From Burkholderia cepacia (lineage in GTDB: Bacteria; Pseudomonadota; Gammaproteobacteria; Burkholderiales; Burkholderiaceae), in assembly GCF_029962485.1 (NCBI RefSeq), contig NZ_CP073638.1, positions 1,302,001-1,366,000 of the forward strand: 64,000 nt of DNA. Reading direction: 5' to 3'. The position numbers and the translations under genes were made by a program. The notes beneath the pieces are model-generated. The model was not told where the DNA came from. It worked only from the letters and a program-made list of their open reading frames with translations, and searched no databases. How positions within the stretch are numbered: position 1 is the first letter of the stretch; every line of letters begins with the position of its first letter. Shown piece by piece: positions 214-40,989 of this stretch.

Positions 214-3200
214 TTACGCCTTTTCGACCTTCACCAGGAACGACTTGAATTCCGGTGTATAGGAGTTGCCGTCACCCACGGACGGAGTCAGGGTATTGGC
301 GAGATAGCCGGGCTTCGTCAGACCCTTGAAGCCCCAGTGCAACGGGACGCCGACCGTCTGGACCTTCTTGCCGTCGACCATCAGCGGCTTGATCCGCTTC
401 GTGACGAGGGCGACCGCGATGATGTAGCCGCGCTTGGACGACACCTTCACGCGCTCGCCATGCGCGACGCCGACTTCCTTCGCGAGGTCTTCGCCGATCT
501 CGACGAATTGCTCGGGCTGGATGATCGAGTTCAGCCGCGCATGCTTGGTCCAGTAATGGAAGTGCTCGGTCAGCCGGTACGTCGTCGCGGCATGCGGGAA
601 CTCCGGCGCCTGGCCGAACGACGCGCGGTCGTCCGGGAACACGCGGGCGGCCGGGTTGTTCAGCGCCAGCGGGTTGTTCGGGTGCAGCGGGTTCGTGCCG
701 ATCGGCGTCTCGAACGGCTCGTAGTGCTCGGGGAACGGACCTTCGTTCATCCCCGCACGCGCGAAGAAGCGCGCGACACCTTCCGGATTCATGATGAACG
801 GCCCCATCCCGTTCTCGGGCGTTTCGTCCGCCTTGAAGTCGGGAATGTCGGCGCCCTTCCACGCGCTGCCGTTCCAGCCGATCAACTTGCGGGTCGGGTC
901 GAACGGCTTGCCGGCGACGTCGCACGATGCACGGTTGTACAGGATCCGCCGGTTCGCCGGCCACGCCCACGCCCAGTTCAGCGTCTGGCCGATGCCGGTC
1001 GGGTCGGAGTTGTCGCGCCGTCCCATCTGGTTGCCGGCCTGCGTCCACGCACCGCAGAAGATCCAGCAGCCGCTCGCGGTCGTGCCGTCGTCCTTCAGCT
1101 GCGCGAACGCGGCGAGCTGCTCGCCCTTCTTCACGAGCGCCTTGGCCGGATCCTTCGGATCAGGCAGGTCGGCGAGCGCCTTTCCGTTGAACTCCATTGC
1201 AAGCTCTTCGGGCGTCGGGCTCTCCGGGTTCGAGTACGGCCACGTCAGGTTGACGATCGGATCCGGATACTTGCCGCCGTCCTTCTGGTACATCTTGCGC
1301 ATGCGCAGGAACAGCCCCGACATGATCTCGAGGTCGCTCTTCGCTTCGCCCGGCGGCTCCGCGCCCTTCCAGTGCCACTGCAGCACACGGCTCGAACTCA
1401 CGAGCGAGCCGTTTTCCTCCGCGAAGCACGTGGTCGGCAGACGGAACACCTCGGTCTGGATCCTGGACGCATCGACGTCGTTGTAGTCGCCGTGATGCTT
1501 CCAGAACTCGGACGTCTCGGTCGCGAGCGGATCCATGATCACGAGCCACTTCAGCTTCGCGAGGCCCGCCGCCGTCTTCACCTTCGACGGCGCCGCCGCG
1601 AGCGGGTTGAAGCCCTGGCAGATGTAGCCGTTCATCTTGCCGGCATTCATCAGCTCGATCGCCTGCAGCAGGTCGTACTGCTTGTCCAGCTTCGGCAGGT
1701 AGTCGTAGGCCCAGTTGTTCTCGGCGGTCGCCGCGTCGCCCCACCAGGACTTCATGAAGCTGACGTGGAAGGCCTTGTAGTTCTTCCAGTAGCTCAACTG
1801 GTTCGGCCGCAGCGGCAGCTGCACGCGCTTCTTGATGTAGCCGTCGAAATCCTGCTCGGACTGCATCGGCAGCGTCATGTAGCCCGGCAGCAGGTTCGAC
1901 ATCAGCCCGAGGTCGGTCAACCCCTGGATGTTCGAGTGCCCGCGCAGCGCGTTCATCCCGCCGCCGGCGATGCCGATGTTGCCGAGCAGCAGCTGCACCA
2001 TCGCGCCGGTGCGGATGATCTGCGCGCCGATCGAGTGGTGGGTCCAGCCGAGCGCGTACAGCACCGTGCCGGCGCGGCCGGGAACGGCCGTGGTCGCGAG
2101 CATCTCGCACACCTTCAGGAATTTCTCCTTCGGCGTGCCGCAGACCTGCTGGACCATGTCCGGCGTATAGCGCGCGTAGTGCTGCTTCAGCAGGTTGTAC
2201 ACGCAACGCGGATGCTGCAGCGTCGGGTCGACCTTCACGAAGCCGTCGTCGCCGAGCTCGTAGTCCCAGCTCGATTTGTCCGGGTACGCGTGCTTCTCCG
2301 CGTCATAGCCGGAATAGATGCCGTCGTTGAACGCGAAATCCTCGCGCACGATGAACGAGAAGTCCGTGTAGTTCTTCACGTACTCGTGCTGGATCTTGTC
2401 GTTCGTCAGCAGATAGTTGATGACGCCGCCCAGGAAGACGATGTCGGTGCCGGTGCGGATCGGCGCGTAGTAATCGGCCACCGAGGCCGTACGCGTAAAG
2501 CGCGGGTCGACGACGATCAGCCGCGCCTTGCGGTGCGCCTTCGCCTCCGTTACCCACTTGAAACCGCACGGATGGGCCTCGGCTGCATTGCCGCCCATCA
2601 CGAGAATCACGTCCGCGTTCTTGATGTCGACCCAATGGTTCGTCATCGCTCCACGGCCAAACGTCGGGGCAAGACCTGCCACCGTCGGGCCATGTCAGAC
2701 ACGCGCCTGATTGTCGAATGCGAGCATCCCGAGACTGCGGATGGTCTTGTGCGTCAGGTAGCCGACCTCGTTGCTGCCCGCCGACGCGGCCAGCATGCCG
2801 GTCGTGAGCCAGCGGTTGACCTTCGCACCGTCTTCAGCCGTCTCGACGAAGTTCGCGTCGCGGTCGGCCTTCATCAGCTTCGCGATGCGGTCGAGCGCGT
2901 CGTTCCACGAAATCGGTTCCCACTTGTCCGAGCCGGGCGCGCGATACTCGGGGTGCGTCAGGCGGTTCGGGCTGTGGATGAAGTCGATCAGGCTCGCGCC
3001 CTTCGGGCACAGCGTGCCGCGATTGACGGGATGGTCGGGATCGCCCTCGATGTGGATGATGCTCGGCTGGGCGTTTTTCGCGCCGTCGCCGAGGCTGTAC
3101 ATCAGGATGCCGCAACCCACTGAACAGTAAGGACAGGTGTTGCGCGTTTCGACTGTGCGCGCCAGCTTGTACTGTCGGACTTCGGCGAGCGCTTCGGACG

Positions 3201-24264: not shown

Positions 24265-24309
24265 CCAAAAAAACAAAAAGCCCGCTATGCGTCTGCATCA
24301 GCGGGCTTA
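24265..24309 (-). terminator. Rho-independent terminator in the metZ leader
   Basis: On the minus strand AGCCCGCT pairs with AGCGGGCT, with an inner ATGC/GCAT extension, followed by TTTTTGTTTTTTT. It lies between the SAM-II-like aptamer and the metZ start (58 bases away), so it can act as the expression platform. It may also end purF transcription. Confidence 0.85.
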
Positions 24310-24353
24310 GGTGCGGTACGACAGCGATCGACTCGGGCCGGTTGCCACCGGCC

Positions 24354-24417
24354 TTCGCTTTAGCTGTTTTGGGAAGTCGCCCCGCGTCCGCAAGCTGATA
24401 TCAAATCGACGCAAGGC
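24354..24417 (-). ncRNA. SAM-II-type riboswitch aptamer upstream of metZ
   Basis: On the minus strand a P1 stem GCGTC (24412-24408) / GACGC (24388-24384) encloses a loop with GATTTG and GCTTGC, and about 20 bases later comes GCTAAAG (near 24362-24356). The set GAUUUG ... GCUUGC ... GCUAAAG with a P1 stem between is the conserved core of SAM-II (SAM-alpha, metA-type) aptamers, in the right order and near-right spacing. AGCU in the loop can pair with AGCU of the 3' segment as the pseudoknot. A strong GGCCGG/CCGGCC hairpin (24335-24353) and a terminator follow. A covariance-model search was not possible here. Confidence 0.75.
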
Positions 24418-24455
24418 CACATCCTATCACGCCTCGCCGGAAGCGTGCGCCGGTG

Positions 24456-36835: not shown

Positions 36836-37140
36836 AGAATTGAACATTTCCCCCAGCAAAGCCATGTCTGACAAGGCTTTCCGCTCTTACCCCACGATCC
36901 ATTGCTCATACAAAAGCATTCATTTCGACATCAATTCAATTACATTACACAAAATTACACAGACGAAATAATCGCCGTCGATACGATCGCCTTCAAACAG
37001 GAATCGGTGCAATTCGACCTTTGCGTTCACCCACGCCGGAAAGGCGGGAGCGCGATCGGCCGGGCTGACGCCGTGCAGTGCCAGAAGTCAGCGCAGTCGC
37101 AAGGCTGCATTTACTCACCAGCTCGTTACGGGGATCGAAC

Positions 37141-38385
37141 ATGGGCTATCAGCAGGGTTTGAGCGGGTTGACCGGCGCGTCGAGCAATCTCGACGTGATC
37201 GGCAACAACATCGCGAACGCAAACACGGTTGGCTTCAAGCAGGGGCGCGCGAACTTCGCCGACATGTACGCGAATTCGGTCGCGACGTCGGCCAACACGC
37301 AGATCGGCATCGGCACGCAGCTCGCGTCGGTGCAGCGGAATTTCGGCCAGGGGACGATCAACACGACGAAATCGTCGCTCGACGTCGCGATCAACGGCAA
37401 CGGCTTCTTCCAGATGTCGAGCAACGGCGTGACCACGTACTCGCGCGACGGCACGTTCCATCGCGACAAGTACGGCGCCATCGTCGACTCGCAAGGCCGC
37501 AACCTGATGGGCTACGCGGCCGGCGCGGGCGGCGTGATCAACACCGCGCAGACCGTGGCGCTGCAGGCGCCGACCAACAACATCGCGCCGCGAGCGACGA
37601 ACACGATTACCGGCCAGTTCAACCTGAACTCGCAGGACAAGGTGCCGACCAAGACGCCGTTCAACGCGAGCGACAGCACGACGTACAACTACAACTCGTC
37701 GATCCAGGTCTACGACACGCTCGGCGGCTCGCAGCAGGTCACGATGTATTTCGCGAAGAGCGCGGCCGGTACGTGGCAGGCGTACGCGGGCGTGCAGGGC
37801 CAGACGCCGACGAATCTCGGCACCGTCACGTTCGATGCATCGGGCCGGATCAGCTCGACGACGTCGGCCGCGACCGGCCAGCCGACGCCGAGCCTCGGCC
37901 AGTTCGCGTTTTCGATTCCCAACACGACGGGCGGCGCCAACCCGCAGAACCTGACGCTCGACCTGGGCGGCACGACGCAGTACGGCGGCAAGGACGGCGT
38001 AACCAATCTCGCGCAGGACGGCTTCGCGAGCGGCACGCTGACGACGTTCTCGATCGGCACCGACGGCAAGCTGACCGGCAACTACTCGAACGGCCAGAGC
38101 GCGGTGCTCGGCCTGATCGCGCTCGCGAATTTCAACAACCCGAACGGGCTCGTGAACGTCGGCGGGAACCAGTATGTCGAAACCGCCGCGTCGGGCGTGC
38201 CGCAAGTCTCCGCGCCGGGCAGCACGAACCACGGCACGCTGCAGGGCAGCGCACTGGAGAACTCGAACGTCGACCTGACAACCGAGCTCGTCAACCTGAT
38301 CACCGCGCAGCGCAATTACCAGGCGAACGCGCAGACGATCAAGACACAGCAAGCCGTCGACCAGACGCTGCTGAGCATGCGCTGA
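37141..38385 (+). CDS. flgE: FlgE-family flagellar hook protein paralogue
   Basis: A 414-residue flagellar rod/hook family protein: N-terminal MGYQQGLSGLTGASSNLDVIGNNIANANTVGFKQ and C-terminal NSNVDLTTELVNLITAQRNYQANAQTIKTQQAVDQTLLSMR are the two helices that pack in the hook core, with a Ser/Thr/Asn-rich FlgE D1/D2 middle. Normal length for FlgE. There is no other flagellar gene in the window; a standard flgBCDEFGHIJ operon is expected elsewhere, which makes this probably a second copy. It sits alone between fimV and asd on the opposite strand from both. GGGGA precedes the ATG at a suitable distance. Whether it is made into hooks is unknown. Confidence 0.9.
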   Translation: MGYQQGLSGLTGASSNLDVIGNNIANANTVGFKQGRANFADMYANSVATSANTQIGIGTQLASVQRNFGQGTINTTKSSLDVAINGNGFFQMSSNGVTTYSRDGTFHRDKYGAIVDSQGRNLMGYAAGAGGVINTAQTVALQAPTNNIAPRATNTITGQFNLNSQDKVPTKTPFNASDSTTYNYNSSIQVYDTLGGSQQVTMYFAKSAAGTWQAYAGVQGQTPTNLGTVTFDASGRISSTTSAATGQPTPSLGQFAFSIPNTTGGANPQNLTLDLGGTTQYGGKDGVTNLAQDGFASGTLTTFSIGTDGKLTGNYSNGQSAVLGLIALANFNNPNGLVNVGGNQYVETAASGVPQVSAPGSTNHGTLQGSALENSNVDLTTELVNLITAQRNYQANAQTIKTQQAVDQTLLSMR

Positions 38386-38484: not shown

Positions 38485-39606
38485 TTACTTGTCGAGCAGG
38501 ATGCGCAGCATGCGGCGCAGCGGCTCGGCCGCGCCCCACAGGAGCTGATCGCCGACCGTGAAGGCCGACAGGTATTCGCCGCCCATCGCGAGCTTGCGCA
38601 GGCGGCCGACCGGCACCGTCAGCGTGCCCGTGACGTTCGCCGGCGACAGGTCGCGCATCGACGCTTCGCGCTCGTTCGGCACGACCTTCACCCAATCGTT
38701 CGCCGACGCGAGGATGCCGTTGATCTCGTCGAGCGGCACATCCTTGTTCAGCTTGATCGTCAGCGCCTGCGAGTGGCAGCGCATCGCGCCGATCCGCACG
38801 CACAGGCCGTCGACCGGGATCGAACCCGGCTCGCCCATTGCCGGCTTGCCGAGGATCTTGTTGGTTTCCGCGCCGCCCTTCCACTCTTCCTTCGACATCC
38901 CGTTGCCGAGATCCTTGTCGATCCACGGGATCAGCGAACCGGCCAGCGGCACGCCGAAGTTGCTGGTCGGCATCGCGTCGCTGTTCATTGCGGCCAGCAC
39001 GCGGCGGTCGATGTCGAGGATCGCGGAAGACGGATCGGCGAGCTGCTCCTTCACCGCACCGTTCAGCGTGCCCATCTGCGCGAGCAGTTCGCGCATGTTC
39101 TGCGCGCCCGCGCCCGATGCGGCCTGGTAGGTCATCGCCGTCATCCAGTCGACGAGGTTCTCGCGGAACAGGCCGCCGAGCGCCATCAGCATCAGGCTGA
39201 CCGTGCAGTTGCCGCCGACGAAGTTCTTCGTGCCCTTGACGAGCGCATCCTTGATCACGTCGAGGTTGACCGGATCGAGGATGATGACTGCGTCATCCTT
39301 CATCCGCAGCGACGATGCCGCGTCGATCCAGTAGCCGTTCCAGCCGGCCGCGCGCAGCTTCGGGAACACGTCGTTCGTGTAGTCGCCGCCCTGGCACGTG
39401 ATGATCACGTCGCACTTCTTCAGCTCGTCGACGTTGGTCGCGTCCTTGAGCGTAGTCTCGTTTTTCGCGAACGACGGCGCCTTGCCGCCCGTGTTGCTGG
39501 TGCTGAAAAACACCGGTTCGATCAGGTCGAAATCGCCTTCTTCCTGCATGCGCTGCATCAGGACGCTGCCGACCATGCCGCGCCAACCTACGAGACCTAC
39601 GTTCAT
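38485..39606 (-). CDS. asd: Aspartate-semialdehyde dehydrogenase
   Basis: A 373-residue enzyme reducing aspartyl phosphate to aspartate semialdehyde, the branch point to lysine/diaminopimelate, threonine, methionine and isoleucine. NADP-binding [13 protein letters not shown] (residues 4-16), active-site Cys134 in [11 protein letters not shown], and the base His in [10 protein letters not shown] (about 277). Start ATG 39606 gives the conserved opening [10 protein letters not shown]. It is the last gene of the leu run; a 315-base gap to leuB holds a possible leader peptide and promoter. AAAGGG precedes the start. Confidence 0.96.
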
Positions 39607-39921
39607 GACTAACCCTTTGCTTTGAATGGAGCTTCCCCGCCATTTCCGTCCCCGCGTGACCGCGCGGGGAAACAGGCGGGCACGACGGCGATCAGCGTTT
39701 AATGATCGTTTTCGTGGTAATGGTTTTCGTGATGACGATGGCGCGCGCACCCGCACGGGCAGTGTTGCCGTGGAGTTTCAGGACCGGGGAGATCAGGGAA
39801 ATCAGCGCCATCGTTCGAGTCTACACAAAGCCGGTGGCCCGCACAACGGCCAACCGTGGGCGAACCGGCCGATTTTCGCGGCCCGTTCGCACCCTTTCTA
39901 CATTATCGGTGCCGCATCGCT
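39607..39921 (-). promoter_or_regulatory. leuB-asd intergenic control region
   Basis: On the minus strand a promoter-like pair TTGTGC (39846-39841), 17-base spacer, TAGACT (39823-39818) is followed six bases later by the ATG of the leader frame (39811). After the leader stop, CCCCGCG/CGCGGGG (7 pairs) competes with pairing of TTCCCCGC to a second GCGGGGAA nearer to asd. A CGATCA/TGATCG hairpin overlaps the last leader codons. No U-run follows, so simple intrinsic termination is not obvious. Confidence 0.5.
39692..39811 (-). CDS. Candidate asd leader peptide rich in Ile, Thr and Lys
   Basis: A 39-codon frame, ATG 39811 to TGA 39692, ending 85 bases before asd. The last 15 residues before the stop are [15 protein letters not shown]: five Ile, five Thr, three Lys and one Val in 14 consecutive codons. 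The products of the aspartate-semialdehyde branch are exactly Lys, Thr, Met and Ile, so the run has the composition expected of an attenuation leader such as that of the E. coli thr operon. The start has no clear ribosome site; the TAGACT box places a transcription start at or next to the ATG, which would make it leaderless. It is not proven to be translated. Confidence 0.55.
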
Positions 39922-40989
39922 TTACAGCGCCGCGACCACCGCGTCACCCATCGCTGCCGTGCCGACCTGCTGGCAGCCCGGCGTGGCGATGTCGCCCGTA
40001 CGGTAACCTTGTTCGAGCACCGTTTTCACCGCGCGCTCGATGCGATCGGCCTGCTCCGCACGATTCAGCGAGTAACGCAGCATCATCGCGGCCGACAGGA
40101 TCGTCGCGAGCGGATTCGCGATGCCCTTGCCCGCGATGTCCGGCGCCGAACCGTGCGACGGTTCGTACAGGCCCTTGTTGTTCTTGTCGAGCGACGCCGA
40201 CGGCAGCATGCCGATCGAGCCCGTCAGCATCGACGCTTCGTCCGACAGGATGTCGCCGAACATGTTGCCGGTGACGATCACGTCGAACTGCTTCGGCGCC
40301 TTCGCGAGCTGCATCGCCGCGTTGTCGACGTACATGTGCGACAGCTCGACGTCCGCGTATTCCTTCGACACGTCGATCATGATGTCGCGCCAGAACTGCG
40401 ACGTTTCGAGCACGTTCGCCTTGTCGACCGACAGCAGCTTCTTCGCGCGCTTGCGGGCCGCCTGGAACGCGACGTGGGCAATGCGACGCACTTCCGGTTC
40501 CGAATAGCGCATCGTGTCGAAGCCTTCGCGCTCGCCGGCGAACGGGCCGTCCGGCGCCGCACGCACGCCGCGCGGCTGGCCGAAATAGATGTCGCCGTTC
40601 AGTTCGCGCACGATCAGGATGTCGAGGCCCGCGACGAGTTCGGCCTTAAGCGGCGATGCATCGACGAGCTGCGGATAGCAGATCGCCGGGCGGAAGTTCG
40701 CGAACAGCTCGAGATGCTTGCGCAGCCCGAGGATCGCCTGCTCAGGGCGCAGCGCGCGCTCGAGCGAGTCGTACTTCCAGTCGCCGACCGCGCCGAACAG
40801 GATCGCGTCGGCTTCCTTTGCGAGCTTCAGCGTCGCGTCGGGCAGCGGATGACCGCTCGCCTCGTAGCCCGCGCCGCCGACCGGCGCCTGTTCGAGTTCG
40901 AACTTCTCGTCGAGTGCGTTCAGCACCTTCACCGCTTCATTGACGATTTCCGGACCGATGCCGTCGCCGGGCAGCACTGCAATCTTCAT
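39922..40989 (-). CDS. leuB: 3-isopropylmalate dehydrogenase
   Basis: A 355-residue NAD-dependent enzyme of leucine synthesis. Signature stretches: [21 protein letters not shown] at the start, [19 protein letters not shown] with the catalytic Arg/Tyr region, [28 protein letters not shown] with the metal-binding Asp residues, and [23 protein letters not shown]. Normal length. It follows leuD after 77 bases. Confidence 0.97.

Follow-up and report, generated by a model that had tools for sequence, protein, structure and literature searches.

Leader-peptide attenuation of amino acid biosynthesis is a known kind of control, and one of the closest described systems is the thr operon attenuator (thrL) of enteric bacteria, in which a leader rich in Thr and Ile codons precedes genes of the aspartate family and ribosome stalling chooses the RNA fold. 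The leader described here, asdL, resembles thrL in its Thr/Ile-rich peptide, its aspartate-family target and, as we propose, the selection of folds by a stalled ribosome. It differs in that its target is asd, in that Lys codons occur in 61/61 distinct ends, and in that its mRNA is predicted to be leaderless and lacks a U-run terminator in Burkholderiaceae. The asd step is the branch point to Lys and diaminopimelate, Thr, Ile and Met. Mycobacterial poly-Cys uORFs are reportedly leaderless, as predicted for asdL, and belong to another phylum, other genes and other amino acids.

The likewise proteobacterial trpL/rnTrpL transcript of Sinorhizobium meliloti (PMC7298713) begins with the ATG of trpL, so that the ORF lies at the 5' end as predicted for asdL; trpL differs in that it senses Trp alone, has a transcription terminator and serves another gene. 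The mycobacterial ilvB1 attenuator (PMC13236596) combines a uORF carrying regulatory codons with alternative folds, as asdL does, and differs in its Rho-independent terminator, its phylum, its genes and its amino acids. Leader-peptide attenuators from a survey of premature terminators (PMC2965389) fall into the same control class as asdL; the survey starts from Rho-independent terminators, and its main text mentions neither asd nor threonine.

Titles and abstract openings of the open-licence papers searched gave no description of an asd leader in this group, which does not prove its absence from print. The term "asd" was also absent from the main text of the B. cenocepacia start-site paper (PMC4603805) and of further B. 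cenocepacia papers. The start-site paper describes a screen of unannotated frames of at least 50 residues, so a leader of 39 residues would be missed. Searches of open-licence papers turned up no mention of asd as the target, of Lys codons in the run, of a leaderless start or a missing U-run at this site, or of a sensor within the LeuB tail.

The window, meaning the whole stretch of 64,000 nucleotides of Burkholderia cepacia DNA that was analysed, carries asdL, an unannotated frame, in the gap between leuB and asd, whose start ATG lies at 39606. The features of the gap and its flanks are as follows.

39692..39811, minus strand: leader peptide ORF "asdL" (name given here), 39 aa, ATG start, stop TGA
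39698..39739, minus strand: Ile/Thr/Lys codon run, 13/14 codons, presumed sensor
38485..39606, minus strand: asd, aspartate-semialdehyde dehydrogenase, 373 aa, presumed controlled gene (TIGR01745, 650.2 bits, cut-off 402.9)
39922..40989, minus strand: leuB, the upstream gene
39613..39618, minus strand: weak Shine-Dalgarno AAAGGG of asd, read from the sequence

A flagellar-hook-like protein gene, presumably of FlgE type, lies convergent and directly behind asd (37078-38385, plus strand).

An earlier note on this DNA had claimed a 39-codon frame with 13 Ile, Thr or Lys codons among its last 14, and asd downstream of it. The TIGR01745 match bears out the identity of asd, and the frame is as claimed: a run of 13/14 occurs once among the 104,782 stop-free 14-codon stretches in the six frames of the whole window, in which the best unrelated stretch holds 9. 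The asdL peptide had no match to any protein family in NCBIfam or Pfam, and the 48 database relatives of a Paraburkholderia leader were all unnamed, hypothetical or uncharacterized. A known riboswitch, T-box or Rfam leader was rejected, as Rfam gave no match at the leader-asd gap: there was none in 39500-40000 at E up to 1 and none at the locus at gathering scores. Elsewhere in the window, Rfam models matched a SECIS_3 selenocysteine element (2642-2700, minus strand, 81.6 bits) and the Burkholderia small RNA candidate Bp2_287 (24275-24448, plus strand, 195.3 bits).

Conservation of the frame, its position and its codon run had been set beforehand as a refutation test, and the leader came through it. 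Specifically, all 25/25 Burkholderia loci (the own genome included) had the frame with at least 11 I/T/K in the last 14 residues, and other genera carried it as well, a leader outside family f49 being scored as present when I/T/K made up at least 8 of its final 14 residues. The end of the divergent Burkholderia locus L024 reads ILVGKIIITKTITKI, with different codons and the same composition. The peptide itself has diverged, with 76 distinct sequences among the 83 regions that have a paired promoter and ATG. The best 80 named loci comprised 46 with the run, 33 without it and one (L071) without an asd start. Carriers among these 80 were Burkholderia, Paraburkholderia, Caballeronia, Trinickia, Cupriavidus and one MAG (L093); the run was absent from the listed loci of Massilia, Duganella, Pseudoduganella, Noviherbaspirillum, Collimonas, Undibacterium, Zoogloea, Limnobacter and Pandoraea and from Burkholderia sp. 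L27(2015) (L072). Loci lacking the run mostly had the leuB end within ~120 nt of asd, L084 and L095 being among the exceptions.

Three sets of Burkholderiaceae representatives had the run in 6/20, 20/20 and 14/24 loci. The 20/20 set was made up of genera already known or expected to carry the leader, and the 14 positives of the last set were of genus g40, one Asd of which matched Ralstonia. Order-wide samples yielded the run in 3/29 loci (two Burkholderiaceae and the genome G037) and 3/40 loci, and the remaining 26/29 and 37/40 had no run at the 8-in-14 threshold. The Leeia family f14 carried it in 3/3 loci (G037, G271 and G312, all of one genus), the Asd of G037 being 100% identical to a Leeia protein. 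Family f49, possibly Comamonadaceae, carried the run in 62/71 loci as a stand-alone leader or a LeuB tail; two loci that belong to it are L235 and, at 7/14, L242, in which leuB itself ends with the run. This distribution exceeds what the earlier note supposed, adding two further families and an enzyme-tail version.

All 61 distinct 14-residue ends contained T, I and K (means 4.7, 3.5 and 2.5), and Met, also derived from aspartate semialdehyde, appeared in 2/61. The last nine codons of the 62 f49 loci were 42% T, 21% K and 17% I. In the structural set of 86 distinct regions (109 loci minus 23 repeats; L180 was left out because one anchor base differs), the mean number of I/T/K was 11.0 in the leader frame versus 2.2 and 0.6 in the other two frames. 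Among close relatives, 23/38 single-base codon differences in the run stayed within I/T/K (17 synonymous and 6 within I/T/K) versus 41% expected, and pN/pS of the last 13 codons ranged from 0.27 to 1.19 by group. As judged from these comparisons, the composition of the run is kept and its sequence much less. Such weak peptide constraint is expected if composition matters, yet is compatible with weak selection too. Two traits of attenuators were found here, namely a short ORF before a biosynthetic gene that is rich in end-product codons, and conservation of codon content rather than sequence. A screen of loci near hom, ilvB and lysC in the same genome (L274, L275, L283, L284) for at least 7 I/T/K or at least 8 I/L/V in the 14 residues before a stop found no similar leader.

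The promoter elements upstream of the leader are the following.

39841..39846, minus strand: probable -35 TTGTGC, 17 nt upstream of the -10 and conserved among the aligned Burkholderia loci
39818..39823, minus strand: -10 TAGACT, with TGTG in front of it and six bases between it and the leader ATG, likewise conserved among the aligned Burkholderia loci

This -10 had been claimed at 39823-39818, near the ATG, and is found there. This six-base spacing puts the predicted transcription start at the leader ATG, so that the leader mRNA would be leaderless. A TANNNT hexamer (CGTGTANNNT or TGTGTANNNT in Burkholderiaceae) stood 6-9 nt before the ATG in 83/86 distinct regions, the three without a promoter-ATG pair being L025 (contig end), L069 and L171, and the -10 had the same spacing in 27/30 stand-alone leaders of f49. 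The Burkholderia alignment also conserved the -10-to-ATG distance, hairpin H1 and the downstream hairpin arms. Both B. cenocepacia (PMC4603805) and C. metallidurans (PMC7563307) are known to have leaderless mRNAs.

The RNA across the last leader codons and the leader-asd gap holds one local hairpin and four segments with alternative partners.

39703..39708, minus strand: 5' arm of hairpin H1, CGATCA, inside the leader codons
39689..39694, minus strand: 3' arm of hairpin H1, TGATCG, beginning with the stop codon
39675..39686, minus strand: segment 2, GTCGTGCCCGCC, with segment 4, segment 5 (long hairpin) and weakly the asd RBS as partners
39664..39672, minus strand: segment 3, TTTCCCCGC, with segment 4 or segment 5 as partner
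39646..39655, minus strand: segment 4, GCGGGGACGG
39632..39641, minus strand: segment 5, GGCGGGGAAG, 3' arm of hairpin 3:5, ~25 nt before the asd ATG, no U-run

The complementary pieces, the hairpin over the last codons and the lack of a U-run noted earlier were all recovered: CCCCGC (39669-39664) complements GCGGGG (39655-39650) or, as TTCCCCGC, complements GCGGGGAA (39640-39633); CGATCA/TGATCG is present and conserved; and the terminator scan gave no match. The predicted leaderless start and the alternative pairings were conserved too. Segments 2 and 3 are C-rich and segments 4 and 5 G-rich. The single-sequence fold of 39811-39596 was not unusually stable (z = -1.0, with 30/200 shuffles as good), and the structural case rests on conservation and covariation, that fold being unremarkable.

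Over the 86 distinct regions, hairpin 3:5 was the most conserved, paired in 757/774 cells (98%) versus at most 72% in slid controls, and H1 was paired in 484/515 cells (94%) versus 5-61%. Pairing 2:4 (498/598 cells) and the inner part of 3:4 (354/426 cells) also exceeded their slid controls. The outer part of 3:4 was unsupported, at 378/494 cells (77%) versus 191/218 (88%) when slid by -4. Covariation within Burkholderiaceae is thin because most 3:5 columns are invariant. Changes read from the sequences include the reduced-genome locus L145, in which the 3:5 arms are rewritten and the pairing kept, and a compensatory change in the Leeia family, CCCCGC:GCGGGG in L270 versus CTCCGC:GCGGAG in L271. 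The RNAalifold consensus kept 3:5 alone under default scoring; with ribosum scoring it also held H1 and a pairing of segment 2 with the RBS.

Alternative folds of single loci were near-equal in Paraburkholderia L047 (-24.8/-24.6 kcal/mol), Cupriavidus (-27.1/-26.9), Caballeronia (-27.5/-26.0) and g24 (-25.0/-23.5); two Burkholderia loci favoured the long hairpin by 8.1 and 6.2, and L055 and the Ralstonia locus favoured 3:5. A uniform structural switch by ribosome position was rejected: with the ribosome placed on the run or the stop, the predicted folds were clade-dependent and without a common answer.

Three loci of g24, with genomes of ~1.2 Mb, showed leader decay in reduced genomes. L145 kept the run and the hairpin with rewritten arms, L146 lost the run, and L147 has a stop inside the run and an AT-rich hairpin with a T-run.

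The f49 sample comprised 71 loci (70/80 genomes found, plus G259), in which a stand-alone frame needed at least 5 I/T/K in the last 10 residues and a LeuB tail at least 4, L355 being the weakest. L304 was left out as a repeat of L235. Thirty loci had a stand-alone leader (e.g., MFAARPFALNTASAALAGVATRAITTKTTTIKG), 32 a LeuB tail (L242, L290, L291, L293, L295 and 27 others) and nine neither. In the LeuB-tail loci the enzyme runs past its usual end into an I/T/K tail that replaces the separate leader. Beyond MGDAVVA, these tails averaged 11.6 residues and were 66% I/T/K, versus 2.9 residues and 4% I/T/K for 105 other LeuB ends, a comparison set drawn from the stand-alone class and other families in which one entry (L242) is itself a tail locus.

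In the 62 f49 loci with the run, the conserved element that follows the stop codon allows segment 4 (GACGAGCCGGGG) to pair with segment 2 or segment 3. The median length was 11 uninterrupted bp for 2:4 versus 5 in shuffles and 6 for 3:4 versus 4. Own pairs beat all 50 between-species partner swaps (mean 9.77 versus at most 9.68 for 2:4, and 6.21 versus at most 6.08 for 3:4), a margin that is small because the f49 segments are similar to one another. A triple covariation was found: wherever segment 4 reads GCCAGG (6/6 loci), its partners in segments 2 and 3 both carry T, reading CCTGG (CTTGG in segment 2 of one). The 56 loci with G there had C in both partners in 27, T (a G-U pair) in one partner in 16 and at least one unclassed side in 13; the segment 4 pattern matched the wrong place in L316, whose row was kept. 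Some LeuB-tail loci, as read by eye, offer segment 3 another partner immediately upstream of the asd RBS, and both sides of this pairing carry changed letters, e.g., CCTGGACCCC:GGGGTCCAGG in L312, CACAAACCCC:GGGGTTTGTG in L330 and CCAAACCC:GGGTTTGG in L346. Exclusive pairings downstream of the codons, with covariation, are present in f49, and the evidence for them is weaker in Burkholderiaceae.

Immediately upstream of the asd RBS, the MAG locus L093 and stand-alone f49 loci such as L288, L306 and L337 have another hairpin, which is A+T-rich (ACAGT..ACTGT) and has a T-rich stretch behind it. This hairpin may be a terminator in f49.

We consider it highly probable, from sequence comparison, that asdL is a ribosome-mediated attenuator tuning asd to the supply of Thr, Ile and Lys. 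The frame, codon run and promoter spacing are conserved, the pairings exclude one another and covary in f49; leader translation, stalling, the choice of the OFF fold (assigned by pathway logic) and the output step are what we infer. RNA polymerase would start at the leader ATG or within ~3 nt of it, and the peptide would be translated from a leaderless mRNA whose last ~14 codons call for Ile, Thr and Lys, all of them end products made by way of aspartate semialdehyde. Shortage of any of the three charged tRNAs would stall the ribosome on the run and keep region 1 of H1 open, leaving segment 2 free for 2:4 pairing. With all three plentiful, the ribosome would reach the stop codon and cover the start of segment 2; segment 3 would then take segment 4 or 5, forming a compact hairpin before asd and lowering its expression. 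Footprint size suggests that a ribosome at the stop would cover the start of segment 2, and that one stalled on the run would not.

How the signal would reach asd is puzzling at this site of a G+C-rich clade, where a U-run terminator was not found. In a simple scan, terminator-like sites occurred in 2/86 Burkholderiaceae regions versus 4.6 in shuffles, in 3/32 of the LeuB-tail class versus 4.0 and in 14/30 of the f49 stand-alone class versus 8.2. The 8 nt after segment 5 held a mean of 2.65 T, with five or more in 2/86. A classical intrinsic-terminator attenuator was rejected for Burkholderiaceae, as terminators were not above chance and the leader-asd gap here has none; in the f49 stand-alone class such a terminator may operate. 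For this clade we give even chances to premature termination helped by Rho or a U-poor hairpin, hold an effect on asd translation or mRNA stability to be possible, and see any other output as unlikely.

A Rho-dependent leader, in which ribosome position would expose or cover a C-rich Rho site between leader and asd, is a tentative alternative. The 45 nt after the stop have no U-run, and in every clade their YC density falls in the top 0.1-1.4% of window stretches, but this C-richness may just stem from the G+C hairpin arms. Regularly spaced YC, as in known rut sites, was found in 7/86 regions and so was not enriched over the window background of 8%.

Somewhat doubtful is a translational attenuator in which segment 2 or the leader codons would hide the asd RBS until a stalled ribosome frees it. 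Ranked for RBS complementarity among 134 12-mers (0 = best), segment 2 had a median of 1 in Burkholderia, 0 in Paraburkholderia, 4 in Cupriavidus and 3 in g24, but 10, 14 and 63 in Caballeronia, Ralstonia and g21. The ribosum-weighted RNAalifold consensus pairs segment 2 with GGG and CAUG of the asd RBS (P ~0.8), and hairpin 3:5 ends 20-27 nt before the AUG. However, RBS pairing equalled shuffles in the 25/86 loci tested (group mean z -0.9 to +0.7), a ribosome on the run gave no consistent fall in it (group mean z -2.0 to +0.6), and the best RBS complementarity of upstream pieces in 25 Burkholderiaceae loci was equalled by 9-93 of 100 shuffles. The Leeia-family leader of L270 had a strong RBS match (8/300 shuffles as good), but 249/300 and 84/300 shuffles equalled the best in L271 and L026. 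Overall, RBS sequestration by segment 2 or leader codons did not exceed shuffles in the loci tested.

A conserved RNA or a functional small protein with incidental codon content is quite improbable. The RNA after the stop is indeed more conserved than the peptide, and leader peptides with trans functions exist, such as peTrpL (PMC7298713). Against this, genera differ strongly in the N-terminal part of the peptide but keep its final codons I/T/K-rich in an unchanged frame, and in 32 f49 loci LeuB ends with the run, a composition not shared by other LeuB ends. A chance ORF in a conserved promoter region can be dismissed: short frames are common in G+C-rich DNA, but the run is unique in the window and its conservation across three families contradicts chance.

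The Asd of Ralstonia L191 is 67-69% identical to the Asd of the compared Cupriavidus, Burkholderia, Massilia and Noviherbaspirillum loci, and 84-87% identical to database proteins of Herminiimonas, Oxalicibacterium and other Noviherbaspirillum. The leader and RNA are retained in L189-L202 (g40, assigned to Ralstonia by one Asd match). An asd of another lineage behind a kept leader suggests that the control element outlived gene replacement and, as far as sequence can tell, asd was probably displaced behind it in Ralstonia.

On balance, we favour the view that a leaderless attenuator reading three amino acids (Thr, Ile, Lys; hardly Met) controls asd in several families of Burkholderiales, and that in 32/71 f49 loci its sensor is a LeuB tail of 6-17 residues past the usual end, selected for its codons and not for protein function, so that translation of the leuB end reads the amino acid supply for the next gene. 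As a natural experiment, the LeuB-tail version lets one compare sister genera in which these codons either follow a promoter and start codon of their own or lack them; it makes codon sensing directly testable and would explain an odd and variable protein tail. The element would join leaderless translation and attenuation in a G+C-rich clade. A multivalent attenuator at asd, if true, would show how these bacteria balance the aspartate family, and the answer on which products count would be Thr, Ile and Lys, and hardly Met.
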